Positions 35,180 to 38,230 of a DNA stretch of 62,562 nt are shown here, piece after piece. Under the pieces are notes generated by a model that had not been told where the DNA came from, did no database searches, and saw nothing but the letters and a program-made list of their open reading frames with translations. The stretch lies in the NCBI RefSeq assembly GCF_012940005.1, contig NZ_SPMX01000011.1:4-62565 (forward strand). Reading direction: 5' to 3'. A program made the position numbers and the translations under genes. The stretch is from Candidatus Accumulibacter contiguus (lineage in GTDB: Bacteria; Pseudomonadota; Gammaproteobacteria; Burkholderiales; Rhodocyclaceae). Numbering within the stretch: the stretch's first letter is position 1; each line of letters starts with the position of its first letter.

Positions 35180-36289
35180 CTATTCGGCCTTGTTCGGCAC
35201 CGCAGGACGTGGCCGCAGGGAGTGCAGGCCTTTGTGGGCCAGGTGGCGGAGCAGCAGGGCGGGCGGCATACGCAGCCACTGGTAGCGGAGCAAGCCAAGT
35301 TGCGCGGCAATCCGCCGCGAGAAGGGTGGCTGCCGGTCCGGAATTCTCGGCAGCGTGCAACGGGGAAAGAGCCAGTCCATCCACCGGATGGCCGCTGCTG
35401 GTGGAGCGGCCAATGGCAGAGCATCAGGCACCGCGGTGGCGAGCCACGCGCGGCAGTAGCGCAGGGCATACCACAGGGGTCGCTCAAGATGGTGGCGTGC
35501 AGCGCGTACAGCGAGCGCCTGCCAGTCGCTTTCCGAGTGCAGATGGGTGCGGATCAGGCCGTCGATATCGACCAGATCGCGCAGATTGGCGAACAGTTCG
35601 GAGTCCTGGAAAAGATGAACTGCTGCGTGCAGGATCTGATCCTGCGGATGCAGGACCAGGAATCGTTCCCCCTCGACCACCTGCAGGTCGGCGAAAAGCA
35701 GTGCCGTGTCCGGCTTGAGACGGGCCGTAACCGGCGTGATCGTGTGGTGCAGATCGAGTTCCACCGAATGTCCGGGACGGCGCATCGGGGGCAGTTCGTG
35801 GCTCCATTCGCGGTAGTAGCGCTGGTCGTAGGCATCGATCACCTCACCTGACCAGCCGGCGTCGAGCAGCGCGGCCTCGGCTCGCTTGAGATCGCTGTAG
35901 GCAACCATCAGGTCGACATCGCTCGGCAGACGGCCGCAGGTGATTTCAAGATTCTGCACGATGTAGGCTGCTCCCTTGAGCACGACCACCGGGATCTCGG
36001 CCGGTAGCGCCTTGGCCAGCGCTGCCAGCTCGATGCGCAGGATCTGGATGCGATGCGCCGAATAGGCTGCTGCTGAGCGCAGATGACCCAGCACGCATTC
36101 CGGCAACTGTGGCAGTAATTCAGGGTGCGACTGAATTCGGTACGAGAGCACCCCCAGCAGTCTGGACTGCCGGGCGAGACGAATGATCTTGTCCCAGTCG
36201 GCGAGACCGACACTGCCTGCCTGCCGGGGGTCGATCAGCAAGGCCAGCAGGCCATGCACGCAGGGATCGACACGTTCCAGGCTGATCAT
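35180..36289 (-). CDS. Nucleotidyltransferase-fold protein of the HPr-rel-A-type operon
   Basis: A 369-residue protein of the NTP_transf_5-like family: VVVLKGAAYIVQNLEITCGRLPSDVDLMV contains the Gly-Arg...Ser-Asp-x-Asp motif with Asp124 and Asp126 as probable metal ligands, followed by AEAALLDAGW and the family segment HSVELDLHHTI. Such proteins often sit next to HprK-related kinases and PqqD-like proteins in exopolysaccharide/exosortase-bearing bacteria. The reaction is unknown. Its ATG overlaps the kinase stop by ATGA, so translation is coupled. An upstream in-frame Met would add 16 residues inside the kinase gene. Convergent with rimO, nine bases apart. Confidence 0.8.
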   Translation of the reverse strand: MISLERVDPCVHGLLALLIDPRQAGSVGLADWDKIIRLARQSRLLGVLSYRIQSHPELLPQLPECVLGHLRSAAAYSAHRIQILRIELAALAKALPAEIPVVVLKGAAYIVQNLEITCGRLPSDVDLMVAYSDLKRAEAALLDAGWSGEVIDAYDQRYYREWSHELPPMRRPGHSVELDLHHTITPVTARLKPDTALLFADLQVVEGERFLVLHPQDQILHAAVHLFQDSELFANLRDLVDIDGLIRTHLHSESDWQALAVRAARHHLERPLWYALRYCRAWLATAVPDALPLAAPPAAAIRWMDWLFPRCTLPRIPDRQPPFSRRIAAQLGLLRYQWLRMPPALLLRHLAHKGLHSLRPRPAVPNKAE

Positions 36290-37233
36290 GCCGCTGCCAT
36301 TGCTACGGTCGATTCCGAAAGCATTGCACGCAGGCATTCGATCGCCTCATCCAGCCGGCTGTATTCGAGTTCGTAGGCCGAACAAGCGTCGATGACATCA
36401 GCCACGGCATGGAACGAGATCCGCCCGAGCAGACCGTAGTTGAAGCTGTTGAAAGCCAGGCGGGCAAAAGCTTCCTCGCTGGGCAGACGACGAGTCGTCA
36501 GCGCAGCGCCTTCCCGAAAACGGGGGAAAAGCACCAGACGCGGGCGGGCAGGAAGTCTCCTGGCATCGACGCTGGCCTCATCGGGAGCCAGGTGGACCAC
36601 GTCTCCCTTGCGGGTTCCTCCGTAGACGGGGCCAAGGATCGCTTCGTCGGTATAAGCGCGGATGACGTCGATCGAGCGATTCTTCAGCGCCACCGGCTTG
36701 AGCATTGGCCACAGTTGGCCGGTGCGTGGGCAGAGCACGCCAAACTCGTCGGACAGCAGCCGAAAGCCACGCAGCATCATGGCCGCCGTCAGCGTACTCT
36801 TGCCGGAGCCCGGTGGTGCAGCCATGATCACGCCCCGCTCACCAAGAGCCAGGACACCGGCGTGCAGCAGGACATGCTGGTTGAAGCGTTGTCCAAAACA
36901 CCAGTTGACCCCCCATTCGAAGTGGGGAAGCGCCTGCTCTCTGGGAAAGGGATCGAAGGGCTGAATGCCGTCGATCAGGAAACGGGATTGTGGTCCGAGG
37001 ATGGCCCGCAGGCCCTTTCCGGAACACACTTCGATGTGAAAATCCGCAAAATCGGCTTTTTCAGCCAGGAAAAACGCCCCGTAAACTCGTTGAAAATCTC
37101 GCACGAAAGGCTTGAGGACGGTCCGGACACGGACCAAGGCAGCACCATAATCGAGCGTCACGGATGCTTCTGAAAAACGCTGTGCCAGCAGGCTTGGCGG
37201 CAGGTCTCGAATTCTCGGGTTGGCGGCGATCAT
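36286..37233 (-). CDS. HprK-related kinase A
   Basis: A 315-residue protein with the P-loop APPGSGKST (Gly142 to Thr147) and the preceding GVNWCFGQRFNQHVLLHAGVLALGERGVI, a pattern of HprK-related kinases, followed by GFRLLSDEFGVL, where the Asp is the likely metal/base residue, and RKGDVVHLAP. True HPr kinase regulates sugar transport by phosphorylating HPr; this family lacks the HPr partner and lies with a PqqD-like protein, so it probably phosphorylates another protein or peptide. It overlaps both neighbours by ATGA (PqqD-like gene upstream, nucleotidyltransferase downstream). About 100 residues before the P-loop form a separate N-terminal domain. Confidence 0.85.
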   Translation of the reverse strand: MIAANPRIRDLPPSLLAQRFSEASVTLDYGAALVRVRTVLKPFVRDFQRVYGAFFLAEKADFADFHIEVCSGKGLRAILGPQSRFLIDGIQPFDPFPREQALPHFEWGVNWCFGQRFNQHVLLHAGVLALGERGVIMAAPPGSGKSTLTAAMMLRGFRLLSDEFGVLCPRTGQLWPMLKPVALKNRSIDVIRAYTDEAILGPVYGGTRKGDVVHLAPDEASVDARRLPARPRLVLFPRFREGAALTTRRLPSEEAFARLAFNSFNYGLLGRISFHAVADVIDACSAYELEYSRLDEAIECLRAMLSESTVAMAAA

Positions 37234-37481
37234 CCGCCAAGGATGCCCATCTCCTCAAGAGAACGCAACACTTCTTTCATTTCGGGGGTGTCGATATCCA
37301 CATCCAGCTCATCACGCAGCAACTCGAAGGCCTGCGCTTGCGGTACCGGCCCGTCCTCGCAGATTTCAGCGAGGGCTTCGAAAATGATCGCTGCCGACGG
37401 GGTCAGGATATGGGTCTGCCAACTTTTCGAATCAAAAACGGCACCGCCGTCGCCCAGTCTGCGGTACGAAATCTCAGCCAA
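37230..37481 (-). CDS. PqqD-like peptide chaperone (HPr-rel-A type)
   Basis: An 83-residue protein with the PqqD-fold pattern: YRRLGDGGAVFDSKSWQTHILTPSAAIIFEAL, then a helix and the C-terminal DIDTPEMKEVLRSLEEMGIL. PqqD proteins bind precursor peptides and hand them to modifying enzymes. Placed between the kinase and a small Tat-like protein, it suggests that the small protein, or a part of it, is presented for modification. Its stop overlaps the kinase ATG; the small-protein gene ends 44 bases upstream. Confidence 0.82.
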   Translation of the reverse strand: MAEISYRRLGDGGAVFDSKSWQTHILTPSAAIIFEALAEICEDGPVPQAQAFELLRDELDVDIDTPEMKEVLRSLEEMGILGG

Positions 37482-37525
37482 TCAGGCTGCTCCAGCCTGG
37501 TCAGGACAGGTCATGGATCAGGGAA

Positions 37526-37867
37526 TCAGGGAATCAGAACGTTGTTGCCATCCGCCTGCCGACCCTGACCCTGATAGAAGGAATTCCAGCACGTTCCACC
37601 ATAAACAGGCCCATGCCCAACGTCAGCGATCTGGAACTTCTCCACGCCACCTACAGTTATCCTTTCGCGTACCCAGGCGTCCGGAAAGTCGGTTACGGGA
37701 GGCGGGGCAGGTGGAGTGTGTAGAGCCTGCCCACGAACAACGCACTGGGTAGTGCTGAAGGCAAGGTCTCTAGCTTCGGCATTCAGCGTAAAGATGGCCG
37801 GTGCTGCTGCGGCAGCTTTCAGCAGGCGTCGGCGCTGCTGGGTTCGTTCTGATGGAGTCGTTGACAT
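37526..37867 (-). CDS. Small Tat-signal-like protein; candidate substrate of the adjacent kinase system
   Basis: A 113-residue protein of no family I know. It begins with TQQRRRLLKAAAAAPAIFTLNAEA, a twin-arginine-like signal (RRRLLK then a short Ala-rich hydrophobic stretch). The mature part, about 80 residues, has two cysteines (TTQCVVRG and GGTCWNSF), a PPAPPPV stretch, and ends GQGRQADGNNVLIP. It is first in the minus-strand operon with PqqD-like, kinase and nucleotidyltransferase genes, and has AAGGA before its ATG. An exported cofolded or modified protein is plausible; the role as substrate is inference from position only. Confidence 0.65.
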   Translation of the reverse strand: MSTTPSERTQQRRRLLKAAAAAPAIFTLNAEARDLAFSTTQCVVRGQALHTPPAPPPVTDFPDAWVRERITVGGVEKFQIADVGHGPVYGGTCWNSFYQGQGRQADGNNVLIP

Positions 37868-38230
37868 GTGTTTTCCTTGAGATCGATTTCTGCCTGAGCA
37901 ACATATTCTAGCTTTCGTTGCGCGGAACGTTTGCGGACTGCATCACGTTACGTATCACAGAAGCAGAAGAACCGCCGTCGTGCCACTGAACGTCCGTCGC
38001 TGAATCACGCCTAGCTAATGTATTAGCAAATTATGTACCAGGATTCAGATGATAAGAAAAACGGGGTTTAAATCATTGAATTGCAGTTTTTCTCCGAGAT
38101 CTCGGAGGCGTCGTCAAGGTTTGGGTGTAAAAAAAAACCGACAGTTCCCGCTCTGCCGTGCTTCCCGATGGTTGCCGTTTCGCTGGCACTACCGAGTCTT
38201 TCGCCTTGCTCATCCCCTCCTGTTGATCCG
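37868..38230. other. Intergenic region upstream of the HPr-rel-A-type operon
   Basis: This 363-base AT-richer gap (relative to the surroundings) holds the leftward promoter of the Tat-like gene; glnD also reads leftward, ending at the right edge. A TAGAAT lies about 45 bases upstream of the ATG but lacks a good -35. It includes the palindrome described separately. No gene is visible. Confidence 0.5.
38014..38027. promoter_or_regulatory. Palindrome GCTAAT-GT-ATTAGC, possible operator
   Basis: A perfect six-base inverted repeat around GT, about 150 bases before the Tat-like gene. It may bind a dimeric regulator, but a single palindrome of this size can also occur by chance. Confidence 0.3.

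Follow-up and report, generated by a model that had tools for sequence, protein, structure and literature searches.

A candidate modification operon for a dedicated twin-arginine-signal protein in Candidatus Accumulibacter contiguus

The analysed stretch of DNA (below, the window) comprises 62,562 nucleotides (nt) of contig NZ_SPMX01000011.1 of Candidatus Accumulibacter contiguus. At 35180..37867, it carries four minus-strand genes encoding a small protein with a twin-arginine signal, a PqqD-like protein, an HprK-related kinase, and a nucleotidyltransferase. We consider it probable that this operon is a system that modifies one exported protein dedicated to it, guided by a recognition element (RRE) of the kind known for ribosomally synthesized and post-translationally modified peptides (RiPPs), and that it belongs to the PEP-CTERM sigma-54 programme. 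The dedicated protein would be the small one, whose gene occupies the position directly upstream of the PqqD gene, here called the slot.

The slot protein and the kinase cassette

An earlier analysis from the letters of the window (the sequence-only reading) had linked the small protein to the other three genes and had proposed to look for its relatives in genomes carrying the kinase and PqqD-like genes. In the family sample of 199 genomes, 82 scored above the TIGR04352 kinase cut-off and yielded 83 kinase loci, all of which were examined. The slot is filled by a twin-arginine-signal protein in 82 out of 83 loci, with the twin arginine visible in 81; the contig starts within the slot gene in L054 and L113, and for L113 this removes the signal as well. 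These proteins fall into 59 of type A, 21 of type B (including that of the window), and two others (L112 and L060). The single exception is L071 (genome G198), where the kinase is preceded by a type A gene at a distance of about 7.5 kb, and a frame judged by eye to be pilin-like stands between them.

The slot was also examined in two wider collections. The phylum sample comprised 398 genomes, 61 of them above the kinase cut-off; 58 of the 59 new ones were taken, and one locus (L210) is cut off, leaving 57 informative loci, 49 of which have a visible twin-arginine protein and one more (L218) a type-A-like mature part with no signal visible. The named-genome set consisted of the best 80 loci from a kinase-alignment search, 77 of them informative (three have too little upstream sequence), and 74 of these have a slot protein, 65 by profile A, eight by profile B, and one by a crude signal pattern alone. 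In the family loci, the same crude pattern occurs in the slot upstream of the kinase in 76 out of 81 cases (two of the 83 loci have too little upstream sequence, and L131 matched in the wrong frame, yet holds a type A protein), versus 23 out of 344 other open reading frames (ORFs) of at least 280 amino acids (aa) in the family loci and five out of 49 in the window.

Conversely, strong relatives of the slot proteins in the family sample are confined to kinase-bearing genomes. Strong profile matches (at least 111 bits for type A and at least 77 bits for type B) were observed in 60 and 21 family genomes, respectively, together 80 genomes, all of them with the kinase, and in none of the 117 kinase-negative family genomes, so that homologues do not occur mostly apart from the other genes; two kinase genomes (G050, G125) have no strong match. 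All remaining A or B profile matches are at most 40 bits. Weak A-profile matches in G155 and G045, which have no kinase above the cut-off, were read and judged artefacts. Weak single-sequence matches of the small protein were found in G189, G006, and G048 (E 9e-4 to 6e-3), also with no kinase above the cut-off, and the type B profile has no match in these three genomes.

The kinase phylogeny agrees with this distribution. Within a tree built from the 83 kinases of the family, the type B kinases all fall into one clade (Shimodaira–Hasegawa-like approximate likelihood ratio test, SH-aLRT, 100), and the A/B label requires one change, versus 44 changes for the genus labels (31 genera), with both types present in seven genera. 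In a 140-row tree, the division between type A and the types with the C-terminal motif described below also needs one change, although long branches call for wariness. As the kinase tree tracks the slot type rather than the genus, the cassette and its exported partner are, judging from the tree, inherited together. Thus, genome comparison strongly supports the assignment of the small protein to the kinase system.

Gene families and conserved residues

The genes and elements of the block are as follows.
37526..37867, minus strand: small protein with twin-arginine signal (113 aa; slot type B), the proposed substrate
37760..37867, minus strand: twin-arginine signal, residues 1-36, proposed leader for the PqqD-like protein; RR invariant in 20/20
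37580..37591, minus strand: Cys93-Trp-Asn-Ser96, the C-terminal C-[WFLYV]-x-[ST] motif, with Ser96 as the proposed acceptor
37230..37481, minus strand: PqqD-like candidate peptide chaperone (RRE), TIGR04353, 83 aa, TTG start, 37.0 bits
36286..37233, minus strand: HprK-related kinase A, TIGR04352, 315 aa, 360.1 bits
35180..36289, minus strand: nucleotidyltransferase PF14907 (NTP_transf_5), 369 aa from the ATGA start, 174 bits

The gene content given by the sequence-only reading was borne out by family searches: all four genes are present in a tight block with ATGA overlaps at 37230-37233 (genes 2 and 3) and 36286-36289 (genes 3 and 4). The PqqD-like protein, which adjoins the kinase through the first of these overlaps, and the kinase itself exceed the curated NCBIfam cut-offs of 35 and 200 bits, respectively, and the nucleotidyltransferase exceeds the Pfam cut-off of 31.2 bits. 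The kinase P-loop, GSGKST, is intact in the window copy. The acidic residues D124, D126, and D179 of the nucleotidyltransferase (numbered from the ATGA start) are D140, D142, and D195 of the longest ORF, and D140 and D142, the pair already singled out as intact, are invariant across 120 aligned nucleotidyltransferases. Neither the small protein nor five slot proteins from other genomes matched a Pfam or NCBIfam family above cut-off. The block is flanked by glnD upstream and a paaI-type thioesterase gene downstream, neither pointing to a link with the operon; an intervening plus-strand ORF, which by eye we take to be rimO, likewise suggests no link.

As had been read from the sequence, the small protein has a Tat-signal-like N-terminus (Tat, twin-arginine translocation) and two cysteines; its twin-arginine signal is RRRLLK. 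The Pfam TAT_signal model scores 13.9 bits on it, below the cut-off of 22.7; the RR pair, situated before a hydrophobic stretch, is invariant in 20 out of 20 aligned type B and 58 out of 58 aligned type A relatives. Type B proteins are 113 to about 195 aa long, and R12, R13, A36, C42, W65, and C93 (window numbering) are invariant in them, with S96 nearly so. The two cysteines of the small protein are thus the conserved pair of the family. Type A proteins are about 190-290 aa long and follow the pattern 'C.SPSA..SG.LS....SPGxWK', S53 and S57 being invariant beside a nearly invariant Cys that follows the signal. The motif C-[WFLYV]-x-[ST] stands near the C-terminus, at a distance of 1-20 residues, in 20 out of 20 type B proteins and in 28 out of 28 and nine out of nine proteins of the phylum-set slot types Z and alpha, respectively, the B, Z, and alpha groups having been sorted in part by this motif itself. 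By reading, the C-terminus of the small protein (GNNVLIP) has no PEP motif or hydrophobic tail and hence no PEP-CTERM sorting tail. No sequence relatives of slot proteins were found in the PDB at E 1.

Residues H124, GKST 144-147, D162-E163, K184-N185, and N265 are kept in at least 97% of 141 kinases. The kinase also keeps the spacing His124-(21)-Lys145 of the P-loop-(17)-Asp162, which we take to correspond to the His, P-loop Lys, and Asp of HPr kinase. The nearest PDB relative of the kinase is HprK 1jb1, a weak match (E 0.0042), and a PDB sequence search with the nucleotidyltransferase gave no credible relatives.

The fourth gene of the cassette varies. In 141 loci, it encodes a nucleotidyltransferase in 119, a tetratricopeptide-repeat (TPR) sulfotransferase in 12 (L177, L185-L187, L195, L199-L201, L203, L205-L207), and neither in ten, four of which have less than 350 nt of downstream sequence; no locus has both. 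PF13469 was checked on two of the TPR-sulfotransferases (L185 and L195). Tyr-Tyr precedes SCW of the SCWxS motif in 12 out of 12 sulfotransferase loci versus one out of 11 type Z nucleotidyltransferase loci, a comparison leaving out five type Z loci with neither gene; an association of Tyr-Tyr with the sulfotransferase was dropped as a claim, since it amounts to one or two phylogenetically independent contrasts.

A PEP-CTERM-type promoter and the exosortase context

A promoter lies near 38026-38143, upstream of the block and beyond the coordinates of the sequence-only reading, which had not noticed it.
38126..38143, minus strand: PEP-CTERM motif 1 (TGTCGG-T9-ACA, with an additional T), the proposed enhancer site for PrsR
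38026..38040, minus strand: sigma-54 -24/-12 box TGGTACATAATTTGC (GG-N10-GC), downstream of motif 1 by 85 nt, with another 158 nt to the start codon

A first, strict sigma-54 pattern matched only three out of 78 loci, and it was the word TTTTTACA, enriched upstream of slot genes (29 out of 78 loci), that led to motif 1. The PEP-CTERM promoter described in 2006 consists of a 17-nt motif 1 ending in TTTACA, a spacer of 32-92 nt, and a sigma-54 GG/GC box 23-221 nt from the start, with PrsR proposed as the activator (PMC1569441). Both distances in the window fall inside these ranges. A position weight matrix for motif 1, built from 14 seed loci without the window, was run over the 300-1900 nt upstream of the kinase; at a score of at least 14, it found the motif in 54 out of 81 family loci (40 out of 67 if the seed loci are left out), versus 0/81 on the opposite strand and 0/80 downstream of the kinase.

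With at most one mismatch, the 17-nt pattern has two further sites in the genome of the window and none in the control. One lies ahead of a PEP-CTERM gene (tail VPEPATLGLLGMGLAALGFRRRR) that also has a GG/GC box; beside the other, with one mismatch (G000:C146:3325-3341, L313), no PEP-CTERM gene was seen. The same genome encodes PrsR (TIGR02915, 736.8 bits with a cut-off of 502.6) and exosortase A (XrtA, 348 bits), the latter beside XrtA-associated genes.

Exosortases (PF09721, E 1e-10 or less) co-occur with the kinase, being present in 78 out of 82 kinase genomes versus 31 out of 117 others in the family sample (Fisher p 2e-24, kinship ignored in this and the next test), and in 32 out of 61 versus 47 out of 337 in the phylum sample (p 3e-10). 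Among families f2, f3, f6, f13, f40, f45, and f78, chosen afterwards, 25 out of 26 kinase genomes have an exosortase. Some cassettes adjoin the genes of the XrtA glycosyltransferases stp1/stp2 (L185) or stp1 (L191), or the gene of PrsT (L174).

Several cassettes have further features nearby. The HprK-related kinase A of L191 directly follows the PEP-CTERM/XrtA glycosyltransferase gene stp1, and that of L204 stands, by eye, in a polysaccharide context, both with no twin-arginine slot protein. Upstream of cassettes L075, L077, L082, L090, and L129, reading frames suggest a Ser/Thr protein kinase-like gene (ERIGKYEIRRLLGEGATS type) ending in a RLSLASSRIANL-like tail; such tails occur alone in L050 and L134.

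Known systems, alternative explanations, and a proposed pathway

The cassette corresponds to the HPr-rel-A system (TIGR04352, TIGR04353) in its kinase and PqqD protein, both above the curated cut-offs and in the same order, and in the adjoining nucleotidyltransferase; the difference is that the families of that system name the kinase and the PqqD protein only, and the exported partner seen here matched no Pfam or NCBIfam family above cut-off. Searches by the system names and wider, with subscription papers and preprints largely outside their scope, found no literature on it.

Lasso-peptide tailoring offers the closest enzymatic parallel. According to PMC8498205, lasso kinases of the HPr type, e.g., the paeninodin kinase, phosphorylate a C-terminal Ser, and hexoses are then attached to this phosphate by the pseudomycoidin nucleotidyltransferase in vivo, which was not shown in vitro. 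B1 is a standalone RRE, and some lasso clusters have sulfotransferase genes (PMC8498205); the B1 recognition element belongs to the PqqD superfamily (PMC7533575). The HprK-like kinase, the PqqD-like recognition protein, the sulfotransferase in some clusters, the Ser near the C-terminus, and the nucleotidyltransferase, likened by enzyme type, all have counterparts here, but the substrate would be a twin-arginine-signal protein of 113-290 aa. The RRE papers PMC7470986 and PMC12710340 make no mention of a kinase, HPr, a nucleotidyltransferase, or a sulfotransferase. A lasso peptide cluster was rejected for this operon, as the transglutaminase-like lasso leader peptidase B2 (PF13471) has no matches in the genome of the window.

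The promoter architecture is shared with the PEP-CTERM/XrtA exopolysaccharide regulon (PMC1569441): motif 1, the sigma-54 motif 2 with matching spacing, and PrsR and XrtA in the genome. The small protein differs in lacking a PEP-CTERM tail: its leader is Tat-like, and it comes with modification enzymes of its own.

NapD and DmsD are Tat-specific chaperones. They resemble the arrangement proposed here in that a small protein would hold the twin-arginine leader until maturation is complete; the candidate chaperone of this operon belongs instead to the PqqD/RRE family, and its leader binding is predicted.

A number of observations weigh against a dedicated, RRE-guided modification system. The C-terminal motif is present in none of 58 type A proteins, and alignment of the A and B profiles is limited to 42 columns, which comprise the signal and the first Cys; thus, a single acceptor rule does not cover all cases. 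No mature domain shared by A and B was seen in this alignment. The slot is not occupied by a random choice of proteins, as 80 out of 83 family loci have type A or B there; partly against this, these two types have only the signal and first Cys in common, and the mature parts in L112 and L060 are unrelated. The fold model of the small protein is poor, with a mean predicted local distance difference test score (pLDDT) of 56.7 and a predicted template modelling score (pTM) of 0.31. No such slot protein was found in seven phylum loci (L188, L190, L191, L197, L204, L214, L229) or in three out of 77 named loci (L238, L271, L294). The motif-1 controls depend on the score, 63/81 at a score of at least 10 versus 8/81 on the reverse strand and 6/80 downstream, and motif 1 at score 14 together with a strict sigma-54 box occurs in just 14 out of 81 family loci (controls 0 and 0). 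Motif 1 was found in 31/74 loci of the named set versus 9/74 reverse and 2/72 downstream, and in 7/56 of the phylum set versus 2/56 and 1/52, so the strength of its signal falls from high in the family through moderate in the named set to almost background level in the phylum sample. Finally, 29 out of 61 phylum-set kinase genomes have no exosortase match; these are G204 and 28 multi-contig genomes from several families (f43, f47, f60, and others), some of them nearly complete.

Two slot-related proteins deserve separate description. That of L060 has a twin-arginine signal and a low-complexity mature part rich in Ser, Gly, and Asn, at a position about 40-490 nt ahead of the kinase ORF. In L168 (G050:C65, about 870-1175), a type-A-like 'LTPGYWKNH' domain lies inside a giant repetitive surface-type protein, an open frame of 1597 aa entering from the contig start, which suggests that the mature part of type A proteins is a module of surface proteins.

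The latter fits an explanation in which the small protein would be co-regulated as a structural component of the matrix, with the enzymes acting on another target, e.g., PEP-CTERM proteins or an exopolysaccharide precursor. This is also favoured by the PEP-CTERM promoter type and exosortase distribution of the operon, by the cassettes beside XrtA glycosyltransferases (L185) or PrsT (L174), and by the kinases of L191, directly after stp1 with no slot protein, and of L204, near a nucleotide-sugar type gene identified by eye. Nevertheless, we regard it as unlikely: the slot protein never occurs as a strong match without the kinase (0/117), yet exosortases do (31 genomes), and the kinase lineage follows the slot-protein type. 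Less likely still is a RiPP precursor that is modified and then cut to a short secreted signalling or antimicrobial peptide. The combination of an RRE-type protein, kinase, nucleotidyltransferase, and sulfotransferase, also present in lasso-peptide clusters, and the placement of the acceptor motif 1-20 residues from the C-terminus agree with such a precursor, but the four genes include no protease or peptide exporter, a twin-arginine signal forms the leader, the mature parts of type A have roughly 140 residues or more, and PF13471 is absent from the genome. As for a regulatory HPr-type switch with incidental neighbours, to which the distant HPr kinase homology of the kinase could point, it is very improbable given that the cassette order is conserved in both the named genomes and the phylum sample, where a dedicated slot protein accompanies it.

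For the preferred reading, a modification system dedicated to the slot protein, the following sequence of events can be proposed. The operon would be switched on together with PEP-CTERM genes by PrsK/PrsR and sigma-54, consistent with the promoter site. The PqqD-like protein, acting as an RRE, would bind the N-terminal twin-arginine leader, possibly also serving as a Tat proofreading chaperone, and the HprK-like kinase would phosphorylate a conserved Ser; the most likely residue in the window is Ser96 of Cys93-Trp-Asn-Ser96. By analogy with lasso-peptide tailoring, we infer that the PF14907 nucleotidyltransferase may extend the phosphate by a sugar or a nucleotidyl group, and the TPR-sulfotransferase observed at the same gene position in 12 other loci may add the second group there. 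The product would leave the cell by Tat and work with the XrtA/PEP-CTERM exopolysaccharide matrix, e.g., in flocculation.

In its broadest form, somewhat more tentative than the assignment of the operon itself, this may be a previously undescribed, phylum-wide pathway, in which RRE-guided phosphorylation and subsequent nucleotidylation, glycosylation, or sulfation of a dedicated Tat cargo precede export, and which, in the family at least, would be a part of the PEP-CTERM/exosortase sigma-54 programme for matrix and flocs. In Aquincola tertiaricarbonis, a sigma-54-dependent PEP-CTERM gene and prsT contribute to floc formation, and activated sludge rests on flocs (PMC9850573). An enzyme cassette for which no described substrate was found gains a promoter and a biological setting, together with candidates for its substrate and for the acceptor residue, which makes it directly testable. 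If the proposed pathway is true, modification enzymes known from lasso peptides would work on complete exported proteins, with a coupling to Tat.

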